Of a stretch of 64,000 nucleotides of DNA, positions 44,550 through 59,740 are shown in pieces. The stretch comes from Ethanoligenens harbinense YUAN-3. Lineage in GTDB: Bacteria > Bacillota > Clostridia > Oscillospirales > Ethanoligenentaceae. The notes under the pieces were generated by a model. That model worked only from the letters and a program-made list of their open reading frames with translations, ran no database searches and was not told where the DNA came from. Every line of letters begins with the position of its first letter. Position 1 is the stretch's first letter. The stretch lies in NCBI RefSeq assembly GCF_000178115.2, contig NC_014828.1:1-64000 (forward strand), written 5' to 3'. The translations under genes and the position numbers were made by a program.

Positions 44550-44575
44550 ATAAATATATAAAAAGTGCATATTGT

Positions 44576-48388: not shown

Positions 48389-49996
48389 ATGAATGTATTA
48401 TCGCTGATCTCTTTTTTTAATTGCATTGGCTTTTCTTGTTTTGCAATCTGCATAGCAAAGTCCGAAGCGACTGGCGGTGAACGCCGGTCGGGGACGCTGA
48501 TCAATATCAGTGCGGCCGTGTGGGCGTTCGCGTATACGTTTTTCTATAGCGCCGCCGATCAACATGCGGCGTGGTTCTGGCTGAAAGTCGGCGCTTTGGG
48601 CTGGTGCACCCTTCCCTGTTTCTCCACATATTATTATGTGCAGCTCTCCGAGGCGGATAAACATTTGGGAAAAGGCTGGCGGAACCTGCTGTTTTTTCTG
48701 TTCCCCGCCGTTTTGACCCTGAGCAATTTGCTTTCGACGAAAACCTCCGTTGCTTACGCTCTGGTGGAAAGCGACAGCGGGTGGGGATGGACTTATGTCA
48801 ATTCGCCGGACTCGATCCGGCTGTGGGTGTATATTGCCTATCTCCTGTTTTATTTCGGCGTCGGTTTTTATCTGGTTTTCCGTTGGGGAAAGCGGAAGAA
48901 GCTGATTTATTTTAAGCGGCAGGCCAACCTGATCGTTTATATATTCGGGCTGATCGTGGTGCTCGGCTTGTTTTCCGATTTGGTTCTGCCGCTGTTTTCT
49001 CATTTCTTCCCGCCTCCGGCCGTTCTGTTTCTGATCGTGGTGCTTTATGGAGACTGGGTGATCACGGCCCGGTTGAATTTTCTGGCGGTCTCCGATCAGA
49101 TCAAATCCCGATTGATGCTGGAGACCATCACGGACGCGGTTCTTGCCGTCAACAGAAGAGGGGGCATCATCAGAGCCAATCGGGCCGCATCCGATCTGTT
49201 CGGCATTCCGGCTCAAACGTTGATCGGCCGGTGCATACGCACATTTTTGGCCGACCCCTTGGTGCTTTCAAAAAATCTTCAGAATCTTGTGGATAAGCAC
49301 ACCCGGAAGGACATGGACATCAAGATCAGAAACGTGGATGGGCGCGTCATCCCAACAGTCGTTTCCGCTTCCATTGCAGAAAACAGCGCCCACGGATTTT
49401 TAGGGGTTGTGCTGTCTTTCCACGACATTTCCAGGCAAAAAGAAATGGAGAATGCACTGAGAGACGGGCAGGAACGATATAAGTCCCTGGCGTCTGATTA
49501 CTATCATCTTGCCAATTATGATGTGTTGACCGGCCTTGCAAACAGAAGGCATTTTTTTGAGCAGGTCGGTCGGTTGCAATTCGAAAGTGGCCTGAGCAGT
49601 GCGGGGATCGCACTGATTTTTATGGATCTGAACGGTTTCAAAAAAATCAACGACCAATACGGGCACGCAATAGGCGACCAGTTGCTGGTCGAGGCATCAA
49701 AAAGGCTCCGTGCCTGCAGGGGAGAAAAAGATATCCTGGCACGGATGGGCGGCGACGAGTTTGTTCTTCTTCTTGTCGACGCGGATATCCATGGGGCCGG
49801 AGAAAGAATCGGGCAAATCCGAATGCAGTTTCAAAAACCCATCGTTTTGGGCGCCGTGGAGCACATGGTCGGCATTGCGGCCGGATTTTCCGTATGCCTG
49901 AAAAAGCGGCTCGAAAAGGATGATATCAGCTTTCTGCTGCGCGAAGCGGACGAAGCGATGTACAAAGACAAGCAGATGCAGAAGCATTCCGGATGA
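48389..49996 (+). CDS. Membrane diguanylate cyclase (7TM sensor, PAS, GGDEF)
   Basis: The 535-aa protein has about seven N-terminal membrane helices (about 1-235, resembling the histidine-kinase N-terminal 7TM sensor domain), a PAS domain (about 245-350, ITDAVLAVNRRGGIIRANRA) and a C-terminal GGDEF domain with intact active site ARMGGDEFVLLL. It should make c-di-GMP from two GTP in response to an unknown membrane signal. The inhibitory I-site (RxxD five residues before GGDEF) reads GEKD, so product inhibition may be absent. It is a single gene with a weak ribosome-binding site. Confidence 0.92.
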   Translation: MNVLSLISFFNCIGFSCFAICIAKSEATGGERRSGTLINISAAVWAFAYTFFYSAADQHAAWFWLKVGALGWCTLPCFSTYYYVQLSEADKHLGKGWRNLLFFLFPAVLTLSNLLSTKTSVAYALVESDSGWGWTYVNSPDSIRLWVYIAYLLFYFGVGFYLVFRWGKRKKLIYFKRQANLIVYIFGLIVVLGLFSDLVLPLFSHFFPPPAVLFLIVVLYGDWVITARLNFLAVSDQIKSRLMLETITDAVLAVNRRGGIIRANRAASDLFGIPAQTLIGRCIRTFLADPLVLSKNLQNLVDKHTRKDMDIKIRNVDGRVIPTVVSASIAENSAHGFLGVVLSFHDISRQKEMENALRDGQERYKSLASDYYHLANYDVLTGLANRRHFFEQVGRLQFESGLSSAGIALIFMDLNGFKKINDQYGHAIGDQLLVEASKRLRACRGEKDILARMGGDEFVLLLVDADIHGAGERIGQIRMQFQKPIVLGAVEHMVGIAAGFSVCLKKRLEKDDISFLLREADEAMYKDKQMQKHSG

Positions 49997-50168: not shown

Positions 50169-50184
50169 TGGGAAAAATCCAAAT

Positions 50185-55195: not shown

Positions 55196-56262
55196 GCGCG
55201 CGCCGCCTTTTCCACCCGGTCGGCGTGGTCGCCGCGCCCGAAGTCGGGGATAAAGCCCGCCGAAGCAATGCGCCGCGAGAGGCATTGCAGGCATTCCGCC
55301 GCTTCTTCCCCGGTGCAGATTTTGTTGTCGTACAGCATGTAGTCCTTGCGGTGGGTCACGGGCGAGAGGTTGGGCATCACTACGTTTGCCCCGGCCCGCA
55401 GGCCCTTTTCACGTCCCAGCGGGTCCACGGTGCCCAGCGCCGTGGTGGCGGGCAGCAGCACCTTCGGCAGCATCAGCCGCAGCAGCGAAAGGAGCACCAG
55501 CGTGAAATCCGCCGTGGGGGTGGGCAGACCGGCATAACGCGTGTCGTGGTGCGGCACGAACGGTCCGATGCCCACCATATGCGGCTGCAACTCGCGCAGA
55601 AACAGGAAATCTTCTGCGAGGGTCTCGTCGGTCTGTCCCGGTGATTCCACCATGAAGCCCGCCCCCACCTGGTAACCGATGGCCCGCAGGTCATACAGGC
55701 ACTGCTTGCGGTGTGCGAGCGAGAGCTCCGGCGGGTGCAGCAGCCGGTAATGCGCGTCATTTGCCGTTTCGTGCCGAAGCAGAAAGCGGTCGGCCCCCGC
55801 GTCATAATACCGCTTGTAGCTTTCAAAAGATTTTTCCCCGATGGAAAGGGTAACGGCGCAGTCGGCGTGGCGTTCCTTCAGGCCGCTCACGATCTCGCAG
55901 ATGCGCGCGTCGGTATACCACGGGTCTTCCCCGCCCTGCAAAACGAAGGTGCGGAAGCCGAGCGCATAGCCTTTGGCGGCGCAGGCCCAGATTTCCTCCG
56001 CAGTCAGGCGGTAGTGGCGGGCGTTCCGGTTCCCGGCGCGGATACCGCAGTAATAGCAGTCGTTTTTGCAGTAGCTGGTGAACTCGATCAGCCCGCGAAA
56101 ATAGACGTTTTTCCCATAATATGGCCGTCTGGCTGCATCGGCCGCGTTAAACAGCGCGGCGCGCTCCGTTTCCCCGGCCAGCCGGGCTTTGGCGATGAGC
56201 GCCGCCAGCGCCGGTTTATCGCCGTGGCGTACAATGTCCGTGCATTCCGCTGCATGCAGCAT
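55192..56262 (-). CDS. hydE: [FeFe] hydrogenase maturation radical SAM protein HydE
   Basis: HydE acts in building the diiron subcluster. The 356-aa product has the radical SAM motif EFTSYCKNDCYYCGIRAGN (CxxxCxxC), SAM-binding FVLQGGEDPWY, and GVESPGQTDETLAEDF-like barrel segments. A TATAAT box on the minus strand at 56321-56316 may be its promoter, but no good -35 is visible. It opens the hydE-aspA-cupin-hydF operon. hydG is not in the operon or window, so it must be elsewhere if maturation is complete. Confidence 0.94.
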   Translation of the reverse strand: MLHAAECTDIVRHGDKPALAALIAKARLAGETERAALFNAADAARRPYYGKNVYFRGLIEFTSYCKNDCYYCGIRAGNRNARHYRLTAEEIWACAAKGYALGFRTFVLQGGEDPWYTDARICEIVSGLKERHADCAVTLSIGEKSFESYKRYYDAGADRFLLRHETANDAHYRLLHPPELSLAHRKQCLYDLRAIGYQVGAGFMVESPGQTDETLAEDFLFLRELQPHMVGIGPFVPHHDTRYAGLPTPTADFTLVLLSLLRLMLPKVLLPATTALGTVDPLGREKGLRAGANVVMPNLSPVTHRKDYMLYDNKICTGEEAAECLQCLSRRIASAGFIPDFGRGDHADRVEKAARA

Positions 56263-56426: not shown

Positions 56427-56508
56427 GGAACTGTGATAGCAGAGGCTGCGGCATGCCGCCGGGTAACGGCGTGCGCGGCCGAATTCAGTGCAGAGGATGC
56501 GAAAATAC

Positions 56509-57843
56509 ATGAGCCAGACAGTATATGTGACCGGGCACCGCAACCCGGATACCGATTCCATCTGTTCGTCTCTCAGCTATGCCGCGCTCAAGCGCGCGCT
56601 GGGCATGAACGCCGTCGCGGCGAGACTGGGCAAGGTGAACCGCGAGACGGCGTTCATCCTGTCGCATTTTGAGGTGGACCCGCCGGAACTGCTCGCTTCA
56701 GTGCGCGGGCAGGTCGAGGATATCACGCTCGAAGAGATCAAGCCGCTCTCGCCGTCCACTGCGCTGCAAACGGCGCTTGAGGCACTCTATGCGGAAAAAA
56801 GCGGCCCGCTCCCGGTGGCGGATGCGGATGGGCGGCTGGCCGGCCTTGTGTCGGCCGGGGATATTGCCGCGCTCGCGCTCACTTATCTGAGCGGCGGGGA
56901 AGCAGACGGCACCGCGGCCGGACTGCGGCAGAAATTTCAGGGCCTGCCGGTGTCGGATGCGATGCGCACTTCCGGCTATGATGTGCTGCACCCCGCCGAT
57001 TATATCAGCGACGCCCGCGCCACGCTGGAAGCCGACTCCGCCGGGCGGGTTCCGGTGGTGGACGAAACGGGCAGCTACCTTGGGTTCTGCACGCTGGCGC
57101 TGCTGGAAACCTACCGCCGCAAGCAGGTGATCCTGGTGGATCACAGCGAGCGGACGCAGACGGTGGACGGTCTGGATGAGGCCGACCTGCTCGAGATCAT
57201 CGACCATCACCGCATTGGCGACATCCAGACCCCCGGACCCATCTATTTCCGCAACGAGCCGGTGGGCTGCTCGGCAACCATTGTGACCAAACTCTACGAT
57301 GAAAACGGTGTCGTGCCCGAGCCGAAGATCGCGGGCTTGCTCTGCTCGGCTATCCTTTCGGATACGGTTAAGTTCAAGTCCCCTACCTGCACGCCGGTGG
57401 ATAAAGCAACCGCTCTGCGCCTGGCGGACATCGCCGGCATCGACATAGACGGCTACGCCAAACAGATGTTTGAGGCGGGTGCGTCTCTGGAAGGCATGTC
57501 GCCGGATGAGATCATTCACAACGACTATAAGGAATATATCATCAGCGGCAAAAAACTGGGCATCTCGCAGGTGACCATGGCCACGCTCTCAAGCTTCGCG
57601 GGCTACCGCGAGCCGGTGCTCTTCCGCAGCGCGGAAATGCTCGAGCAGGAAGGCTATGCCGCCGTGATGGTCATTGTGACGGCCATCCTTGATGAGCAGA
57701 CCGAAGTGCTGTTCAAAGAGACCGAGCCGGGTCTGGTGGCGCTGGCGTTCGGTGACACGAAAGACGACTGCAGCTTCCTGATGGAGGGTGTGGTATCCCG
57801 TAAGAAGCAGATCGTACCGCGGCTCACCCGCGCACTTTCGTAA
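56509..57843 (+). CDS. Manganese-dependent inorganic pyrophosphatase with CBS domains
   Basis: The enzyme hydrolyses pyrophosphate to drive biosynthesis. The 444-aa product is a family II (DHH) pyrophosphatase with TGHRNPDTDSICSS, VDHSERTQ, IDHHRIGDI, and the C-terminal DHHA2 domain with the late SRKKQIVPRL. A regulatory CBS pair (about 75-190) is inserted between the first motif and the rest. There is no DRTGG domain. Homologues of this CBS type are controlled by adenine nucleotides. The start at 56509 (MSQTVYVTG) has AGAGGA 11 bases upstream. Confidence 0.93.
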   Translation: MSQTVYVTGHRNPDTDSICSSLSYAALKRALGMNAVAARLGKVNRETAFILSHFEVDPPELLASVRGQVEDITLEEIKPLSPSTALQTALEALYAEKSGPLPVADADGRLAGLVSAGDIAALALTYLSGGEADGTAAGLRQKFQGLPVSDAMRTSGYDVLHPADYISDARATLEADSAGRVPVVDETGSYLGFCTLALLETYRRKQVILVDHSERTQTVDGLDEADLLEIIDHHRIGDIQTPGPIYFRNEPVGCSATIVTKLYDENGVVPEPKIAGLLCSAILSDTVKFKSPTCTPVDKATALRLADIAGIDIDGYAKQMFEAGASLEGMSPDEIIHNDYKEYIISGKKLGISQVTMATLSSFAGYREPVLFRSAEMLEQEGYAAVMVIVTAILDEQTEVLFKETEPGLVALAFGDTKDDCSFLMEGVVSRKKQIVPRLTRALS

Positions 57844-57870
57844 AGTTTCCCCACCCCCTATTCGCGCAAA

Positions 57871-57911
57871 CAGAAAAACACCTCCCCGGCATGAAGGGAG
57901 GTGTTTTTCTG
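57871..57911. terminator. Intrinsic terminator after the pyrophosphatase gene
   Basis: CAGAAAAACACCTCCC pairs perfectly with GGGAGGTGTTTTTCTG (16 bp), with T runs in both directions. Confidence 0.93.
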
Positions 57912-58036
57912 TTTCTTTGGCGGCAGTGCAAAGAAACAATGGCAGATTGGGGAGGTAGTTTATAACAAGCCGGCCCCCTTGAGAAAAGGCCGAGTTATAA
58001 AGTGGAGGGAGAAGGCGCGGTTTCGCATATACAACG

Positions 58037-58074
58037 AAACGGACACCCATTTTATAACAAGGTGCCCGTTTTTT
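58037..58074. terminator. Hairpin downstream of the orphan riboswitch
   Basis: AAACGGACACC (58037-58047) faces GGTGCCCGTTT (58061-58071), then more T on the plus strand. On the minus strand the same stem is fully paired using one G-U and lies 19 bases after the riboswitch, where an expression-platform terminator would be expected, although few U residues follow. Confidence 0.55.
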
Positions 58075-58092
58075 CAAACAAGTGAACAAAAA

Positions 58093-58164
58093 GGCAACCC
58101 GGCTATCATCGTGATGAAACATTAGACCCGTGGCTTTGCGTCCCCGCCTTTCGACGGGTTTGCC
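58093..58164 (-). promoter_or_regulatory. Orphan cyclic di-GMP-I riboswitch
   Basis: Read on the minus strand it has all core GEMM-I parts: GGCAAACCCGTCGAAAGGCG, then GGGGACGCAAAGCCACGGGT, CTAATG, a short arm and CCGGGTTGCC, with P1 GGCAA/TTGCC. A good minus-strand promoter lies just upstream. Downstream are hairpins and then the pyrophosphatase gene on the opposite strand. I find no convincing coding sequence for it to control, only a 22-codon ORF without a ribosome-binding site. Confidence 0.88.
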
Positions 58165-58201
58165 GATACATTTTGCAATATTTATACAATTCTCACAATT
58201 T

Positions 58202-58230
58202 ATTATAGCATGTCAGGCAGAGGATTGCAA
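58202..58230 (-). promoter_or_regulatory. Promoter of the orphan riboswitch
   Basis: On the minus strand TTGCAA (58230-58225) and TATAAT (58207-58202) are 17 bases apart, placing the start about 35 bases before the aptamer. Confidence 0.75.
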
Positions 58231-58570: not shown

Positions 58571-59740
58571 ATGGCAAGATTCACATTGCCGCGGGACATT
58601 TATTTCGGCAACAACGCGATTGAAGAACTGAGCAACCTCAAAGGCCACAAAAAAGCGTTTGTCGTTACCGGCGGTCACTCCATGCAGAAATTCGGGTTTC
58701 TCGATAAGCTGGAGGACGTGCTGAAAAAAGCGGGCTTGGAAGTGCAGCTTTTTGCGGGCGTGGAGCCCGACCCGTCTGTTGAGACCGTCTATAAGGGCGC
58801 CGAAGCCATGCGCGCTTTCCAGCCGGATGTCATCGTTGCCATCGGCGGCGGTTCTCCCATCGATGCCGCCAAGGCGATGTGGGTCTTCTATGAATATCCC
58901 GAGAAGAAATTCGACGATATCAAAGACCCGTTCTCCCTGCCCAAGCTGCGGCAGAAAGCCATCTTCGTGGCCGTGCCCTCCACCAGCGGCACCGCGACCG
59001 AAGTGACGGCTTTCTCGGTCATCACCGACTATTCCACCAAAGTCAAATACCCGCTGGCCGACTTCGAAATCACGCCGGACGTTGCGGTGCTCGACTATGC
59101 GCTGGCGCAGACCATGCCTCCCAAACTGACCGCCCACACCGGCATGGACGCCCTCACCCACGCCATTGAAGCCTATGTCGCCGTGGCGCGTTCCCCGTTC
59201 AGCGACCCACTGGCCATCAAAGCCATCCAGTGGGTCTTCGATAACCTCTCCGATTCCTACAACGGCAACAAAAAAGCGCGTGAGCGCATGCATGTGGCGC
59301 AGTGCCTGGCCGGCATGGCGTTTTCCAACGCGCTGCTGGGCATCTGCCACTCGCTGGCCCACAAGATCGGCGCGCAGTTTGATCTGCCGCATGGCCTGTG
59401 CAACGCCATCCTGCTGCCTTATGTCATCAAATACAACTCGGTCGTTTCCATGAAGGATTACGCCGACATTGCCCGCTCGCTCGGCCTGCCGGGCGGCACC
59501 GACAAGCAGCTCACCCATTCCCTCATCGAAGCGGTGAAAACCCTCAATGCCCGTGTGGGTATTCTCCCCACGCTGCGTGAAAACGGCGTGACCGACGAAC
59601 TTTTCAACGCGCACATCGACTTCATCGCCGAGCAGGCCCAACTGGATCCCTGCACGGGCGCAAACCCGCGCGGCACCACGCCGGGCGAGCTGAAGAAGGT
59701 TCTGGAATGCGCGCTGGACGGCTCGCCGCTGAACTTCTAA
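58571..59740 (+). CDS. Iron-containing alcohol dehydrogenase
   Basis: The 389-aa product belongs to the group III (iron) alcohol dehydrogenases. It has the NAD(P)-binding AIGGGSPIDAAKAMWV, the TSGTATEVTAFSVIT segment and the metal site with MDALTHAIEAY, ICHSLAHKIGA and the His in LPHGLCNAILLPYV. It probably reduces acetaldehyde or butyraldehyde to the alcohol, disposing of electrons in fermentation. The start at 58571 (MARFTLPRDIYFG) follows GAAAGGTGA. Codon use is strongly biased towards C-ending codons, as in highly expressed genes. Confidence 0.93.
   Translation: MARFTLPRDIYFGNNAIEELSNLKGHKKAFVVTGGHSMQKFGFLDKLEDVLKKAGLEVQLFAGVEPDPSVETVYKGAEAMRAFQPDVIVAIGGGSPIDAAKAMWVFYEYPEKKFDDIKDPFSLPKLRQKAIFVAVPSTSGTATEVTAFSVITDYSTKVKYPLADFEITPDVAVLDYALAQTMPPKLTAHTGMDALTHAIEAYVAVARSPFSDPLAIKAIQWVFDNLSDSYNGNKKARERMHVAQCLAGMAFSNALLGICHSLAHKIGAQFDLPHGLCNAILLPYVIKYNSVVSMKDYADIARSLGLPGGTDKQLTHSLIEAVKTLNARVGILPTLRENGVTDELFNAHIDFIAEQAQLDPCTGANPRGTTPGELKKVLECALDGSPLNF

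Follow-up and report, generated by a model that had tools for sequence, protein, structure and literature searches.

A c-di-GMP-I riboswitch without a recognised gene in Ethanoligenens harbinense, and candidate riboswitch-linked noncoding RNAs in its order

Organisation and coding capacity of the 58089 locus

We analysed a window comprising the first 64,000 nucleotides of the Ethanoligenens harbinense YUAN-3 chromosome and focused on an aptamer on its minus strand, at 58089–58173 (hereafter the 58089 locus). The aptamer lies between two plus-strand genes: a convergent DHH/DHHA2/CBS family II inorganic pyrophosphatase gene (56488–57843, assigned from its Pfam domains), whose stop codon is 245 bases away, and a divergent gene for an iron-containing alcohol dehydrogenase (Fe-ADH; 58571–59740). 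The next minus-strand gene starts at 56262, beyond the pyrophosphatase gene, and encodes a radical SAM protein that we take to be HydE-like.

The Rfam scan of the window returned three riboswitches: FMN at 50181, c-di-GMP-I at 44570 on the plus strand, and c-di-GMP-I-GGC at 58173–58089 on the minus strand. By E-value, the last one was best assigned to RF03167, the c-di-GMP-I-GGC model, which it matched over model positions 1–80 of 80 at 71 bits (cut-off 59; E 8.2e-15 for the 64-kb window); it also matched RF01051 over model positions 1–87 of 87 (78.7 bits, cut-off 35). As this general model gives 78.7 bits, the GGC sub-class label is marginal and the clan is certain. Judged by these matches, the element is a complete c-di-GMP-I aptamer, with c-di-GMP as its predicted ligand. 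A sigma-A-type promoter (TTGCAA-17-TATAAT, 58202–58230, minus strand) with 10 of 12 consensus bases and a TG extension (extended -10) precedes it, 28 nt separating the -10 element from the aptamer. By itself the promoter match is weak evidence, since six such sites occurred in the 3.5 kb scanned against 1.8 expected.

Downstream of the aptamer, the minus strand carries two hairpins (1 and 2), each followed by a C/U-rich stretch, and then a 19-bp inverted repeat. Hairpin 1 (58037–58071, 12 bp) is a candidate ligand-dependent terminator that none of 200 shuffles matched in folding (z -3.56), and a weak U tract (CGUUGUAU) follows its stem: with a T score of 3.1 against a median of 4.1, it ranked 35th from the weak end among the 110 aptamers with a scoreable hairpin in our survey of 131 (see below). 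Hairpin 2 (57959–58001, 8 + 10 bp) has a poor U tract and may be a second terminator or the terminator of a lost gene; folded as 57955–58010, it was likewise equalled by 0 of 200 shuffles (z -3.53). The perfect 19-bp inverted repeat at 57868–57914, which reaches 20 bp in the partial-transcript fold, forms a bidirectional intrinsic terminator shared with the convergent pyrophosphatase gene. Because it is symmetric and flanked by T runs on both sides, it should also end the minus-strand RNA, and it is the likely 3' end of that transcript. The first-pass annotation of this DNA had described a complete GEMM-I aptamer on the minus strand, the TTGCAA-17-TATAAT promoter upstream, and hairpins followed by the convergent pyrophosphatase gene downstream, all of which our analysis bears out.

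Minimum-energy folds of partial transcripts pointed to two alternative structures. The aptamer core helices and hairpin 1 coexisted for transcripts ending at 58036–58020, while for ends at 58050–58045 and from 58005 on, the segment 58106–58092 paired in most lengths with 58067–58054 and hairpin 1 was lost. These alternative helices, a candidate antiterminator spanning 58054–58106 on the minus strand, pair the 3' strand of the aptamer with part of hairpin 1, namely its 5' arm and loop. Between 91 and 179 of 1000 shuffles showed complementarity as good, in a weak test by which the protease riboswitch of the same genome was likewise not significant. Such alternation of a terminator and an antiterminator is typical of OFF switches. 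We also observed an exact 11-base repeat, CTTGTTATAAA on the minus strand, at 58050–58061 in the loop of hairpin 1 and at 57958–57969 in the 3' arm of hairpin 2; either copy could pair with the segment 58005–57994.

We then examined the coding capacity of the transcript. Inside 58195–57868, none of the 17 minus-strand starts opening at least five codons matched the Shine-Dalgarno consensus at more than 4 bases, the best being a TTG at 58034 (24 codons). A 177-codon minus-strand ORF starts at 58122, inside the aptamer, and crosses the pyrophosphatase gene in antisense; it had no Shine-Dalgarno sequence, and none of the four ORFs of the region (this one and two plus-strand ORFs included) had a Pfam match. 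No codirectional ORF of at least 60 codons with a Shine-Dalgarno sequence was detected within 1000 nt of the aptamer. Cis-acting gene control calls for a codirectional gene on the same transcript, and none was found here; what we found is a riboswitch RNA without a conserved ORF, the merRNA type of arrangement discussed below. The locus is thus one more orphan c-di-GMP-I riboswitch, of a kind already described, and its anatomy is quite probably that of a gene-less transcription unit.

Other c-di-GMP elements and history of the locus

The E. harbinense genome (one contig, 3,008,576 bases) contains three c-di-GMP-I aptamers. The one at 44570 (plus strand) has the normal arrangement, being followed by a strong terminator-like hairpin and preceding a gene for a papain-family protease with lectin-like and Ig-like domains. 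The third (2083111–2083199, plus strand; L093:7111-8815) has an intact terminator-like hairpin with an opposite-strand IS66 transposase gene directly behind it. A diguanylate cyclase gene (GGDEF, 124 bits) is present in the window at 48389–49996.

The sole genome of the same genus that we found (G001, 62% complete) carries a hydE-like gene, the pyrophosphatase gene (69% identical) and a hydrogenase/PAS gene contiguously, with neither the Fe-ADH gene nor the aptamer between them. An ortholog of the Fe-ADH was sought in G001–G003 (60–76% complete) and none was found (best 46%); relatives that are 70–75% identical occur in distant families of the class. Based on this gene order and on the distribution of the Fe-ADH, either this lineage acquired or rearranged the interval from 57915 to about 60090, or G001 lost it, and by these comparisons the aptamer/Fe-ADH block is specific to this lineage. 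We rejected the Fe-ADH gene as the carrier of the riboswitch, as the 19 loci with its closest relatives had no c-di-GMP aptamer.

The 171-nt tail (57916–58086) had no relative in the 393 other genomes of the order, the search finding only the tail itself. When the whole locus was compared with 79 genomes, matches elsewhere were confined to the aptamer and to short stretches near the terminator and pyrophosphatase ends; plasmid matches fell only around the aptamer (three plasmids) and phages gave none. The unique tail and a neighbourhood that differs from that of G001 point to a recent arrangement and leave no basis for a test of conservation. The first-pass annotation had proposed synteny in related strains as a way to see whether a gene had been deleted: in the one same-genus comparison, with G001, the aptamer/Fe-ADH block is missing between the same neighbours. 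Separately, plasmid pTVN of Thermocaproicibacter melissae (L311, 19 kb) carries a c-di-GMP-I-like stretch about 280 bases upstream of genes for a hypothetical protein and a methyl-accepting chemotaxis protein.

Gene-less aptamers and aptamer/CU-tail units in the order

RF03167 had a match in 27 of the 79 relatives' genomes, and RF01051 in at least 103 of the 394 genomes of the order. We surveyed 131 aptamers with available DNA, taken from the matches listed and from the window, with matches under about 65 bits mostly left out. The first-pass criterion was an ORF in the same direction, at least 60 codons long and preceded by a Shine-Dalgarno sequence, within 1000 nt, and unclear cases were then read by eye; several of the flagged aptamers proved to have genes with unusual starts or cut by contig ends. 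Finally, 12 of the 131 aptamers were judged by eye to lack a plausible codirectional gene: those at 58089 and 2083111 in E. harbinense (G000), and those on G001:C81, G003:C292, G007:C208, G224:C3, G175:C1, G091:C22, G086:C149, G327:C4, G345:C57 and G236:C13. G003:C292 was counted as gene-less although an ORF lies at 378 nt, which we discounted.

Some orphans resembled one another. Aptamer and terminator were 80–85% identical across three families in G001:C81 (L068), G224:C3 (L214) and G175:C1 (L288), and the downstream DNA of G001:C81 and G003:C292 (L090) was 82% identical over 994 bases, with a sigma-like and an HTH gene (by eye). In G007:C208 (L071) and G232:C6 (L206), the aptamer and terminator were followed by ORFs of 12–13 codons, MIICFYSIWRLK and MGIICIPFYRRWN, with a strong Shine-Dalgarno sequence (by eye).

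We also found an aptamer/CU-tail unit in six genomes of one family (f2), four of them from one genus (G046, L065:1000-1270; G078, L067:1000-1225; G085, L251; G086, L244) and two from another (G090, L210; G091, L219). The unit comprises a promoter that agrees with the consensus at 11 or 12 of 12 bases and is placed 14–16 nt before the aptamer, the c-di-GMP-I aptamer, a terminator (in G046, G078, G085 and G086), a tail motif (CATTCTTCY..ACCCATCT, with a variant in G091) and a further hairpin, which has a T run behind it in five units. What comes next varies: argS with its own promoter in G078, another ORF and then argS in G046 (by eye), thrS with its own promoter in G090, and convergent ORFs resembling cysK in G086 and RimI in G091 (names by eye); the G085 unit is cut by the contig end.

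The exact tail motif was present in 7 of 393 genomes, namely five of the six f2 genomes, G083 and G271, the last being a member of another family whose match looks like chance; it was absent from the family f1 relatives G001–G003. In G083, which belongs to the same family as the six, the motif and a terminator hairpin (L313:1440-1602) are preceded by a long C/T-rich stretch in which no aptamer was seen, and the contig ends about 100 nt upstream. A search of the six genomes with a 20-base complement of the tail, allowing up to 3 mismatches, gave two non-self matches, which both belong to G085 (L322:1501-1520 and L323:1501-1520) and sit at the ribosome-binding site immediately before an ATG; no non-self match came from the other five genomes. 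Ribosome-binding sites are purine-rich, and for this reason, together with the lack of matches in the other five genomes, the two near-complements are suggestive only.

The f2 units are like the 58089 locus in having a promoter, an aptamer, a noncoding tail with a C/U-rich stretch, a further terminator hairpin and unrelated neighbours, but their tail motif is conserved and was not found in the E. harbinense tail. A resemblance between the two tails noticed by eye was rejected, as a profile of the six tails omitted the 58089 locus even at E 100. We regard the f2 unit as a candidate c-di-GMP-controlled small RNA, and as more novel than the 58089 locus.

Interpretation of the orphan riboswitch

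Gene-less riboswitches of this class have been described elsewhere. In Clostridioides difficile, one report lists 5 of 12 class I c-di-GMP riboswitches without a detectable downstream coding sequence (Cdi-1-4, -5, -6, -7 and -10; PMC6200980); they are comparable by description to the 58089 locus, but come with RNA-seq data, in which their reads are very low (PMC6200980). Two of these orphans, cdi1_4 and cdi1_5, precede the antitoxin RNAs RCd11 and RCd12 (PMC7699646; also PMC11477304), and for the former, terminated transcripts of about 140 nt and read-through transcripts of about 400 nt are reported (PMC7699646). The shared layout is a class I riboswitch before a noncoding RNA, with short and long transcripts that are also predicted at 58089; RCd11 and RCd12 are, however, antisense RNAs to a toxin gene with a second promoter downstream of the riboswitch (PMC7699646), whereas at 58089 no toxin gene was recognised (by eye; the two plus-strand ORFs have no Pfam match). 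In Bdellovibrio bacteriovorus, merRNA is a noncoding RNA that contains a c-di-GMP riboswitch but no conserved ORF and has been proposed to store c-di-GMP; it is 445 nt long and massively expressed in attack phase (PMC3627812), while the 58089 locus resembles it in sequence anatomy alone. In the literature searched, with most subscription journals outside it, we found no paper on the 58089 locus or on E. harbinense and c-di-GMP.

We tentatively favour, at somewhat less than even confidence, a c-di-GMP-I riboswitch that stands alone and yields nothing but a functional short noncoding RNA. Minus-strand transcription would start near 58195. With c-di-GMP bound, the aptamer would keep its own 3' strand, hairpin 1 would form and an RNA of about 160 nt would end near 58036. 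In the ligand-free state, hairpin 1 would lose its 5' arm and loop to pairing with the 3' strand of the aptamer. Polymerase would read through as far as the bidirectional terminator, and the resulting RNA of about 325 nt would contain two C/U-rich stretches complementary to the Shine-Dalgarno sequence. The OFF direction, the sizes of the two RNAs (about 160 and 325 nt) and any action in trans are our inferences. A search of the E. harbinense genome with the 20-base complement of the first C/U-rich stretch, allowing up to 3 mismatches, gave no target.

The closest rival is that the gene of the riboswitch was lost or displaced during rearrangement of the block, leaving the aptamer and promoter behind, with hairpin 2 perhaps as an old operon terminator. 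Most of the 131 surveyed aptamers do have a codirectional ORF close by, the G001 region is contiguous without the Fe-ADH gene and aptamer, and the Fe-ADH has no ortholog in G001–G003, so the block has been rearranged; the IS66 transposase gene behind the terminator at 2083111 indicates that decoupling happens in this genome, and the weak U tract of hairpin 1 also counts for this reading. Against a remnant, the aptamer, promoter and hairpins look intact, and there is no gene debris, given that the four ORFs lack Pfam matches and that no match to the tail came from plasmids, phages or other genomes of the order. We slightly favour the functional noncoding RNA on account of these intact parts and of the noncoding products of several orphans in the order and in C. 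difficile. We also counted for it the competing folds as the RNA grows, the missing credible ORF, the two hairpins and strong shared terminator, the RCd11/RCd12 and merRNA precedents, the six f2 units and the GGDEF gene in the window; we counted against it the tail without relatives, an antiterminator no better than chance, the weak U tract and the missing trans target. The unique tail and the rearranged neighbourhood, with the block missing in G001, keep the remnant close behind and almost as likely.

Other readings are clearly less probable. Read-through RNA or polymerase could interfere with the convergent pyrophosphatase gene at low c-di-GMP, as for antisense-acting riboswitches, an arrangement to which a survey reports the c-di-GMP family to be the most prone (152 antisense against 2,554 sense; PMC9943018). 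The aptamer is convergent and its 245-base distance from the pyrophosphatase stop satisfies the rule of at most 500 nt from the 3' end of the gene (PMC9943018), but the strong 19-bp bidirectional terminator intervenes, there is no sign of read-through past it, and the orthologous pyrophosphatase gene of G001 does without such an arrangement, which makes antisense action unlikely. A ligand sponge, that is, an abundant RNA storing c-di-GMP, had been put forward in the first-pass annotation and shares its anatomy with merRNA (PMC3627812), a published precedent beyond which we found nothing specific in its favour here; one aptamer and an ordinary promoter do not indicate the extreme abundance needed, and we hold this reading to be very improbable. 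Equally slim is the chance that the riboswitch controls an unrecognised small peptide, also raised earlier: two other orphans (G007:C208 and G232:C6) are followed by 12–13 codon ORFs with a strong Shine-Dalgarno sequence, but at 58089 no start exceeds a 4-base match to that consensus. Overall, the first-pass reading of an orphan without a plausible minus-strand ORF stands, none of the 17 starts having a convincing ribosome-binding site, whereas its small-RNA and lost-gene alternatives are not separable by the present comparisons.

A wider proposal, which we regard as speculative and on balance unlikely, is that c-di-GMP-I aptamers were joined more than once in the order to noncoding bodies and became c-di-GMP-gated trans-acting small RNAs. 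The functional noncoding RNA proposed for the 58089 locus would be one of these and the f2 unit a conserved one, whose CU-rich tail is complementary to ribosome-binding regions and whose two non-self near-matches in G085 both lie just before a start codon. Riboswitches that sense c-di-GMP are usually assumed to control the gene next to them. Should many gate small RNAs instead, base pairing would carry the signal to unlinked genes, and for that share of riboswitches any survey linking each one with its neighbour would be wrong.
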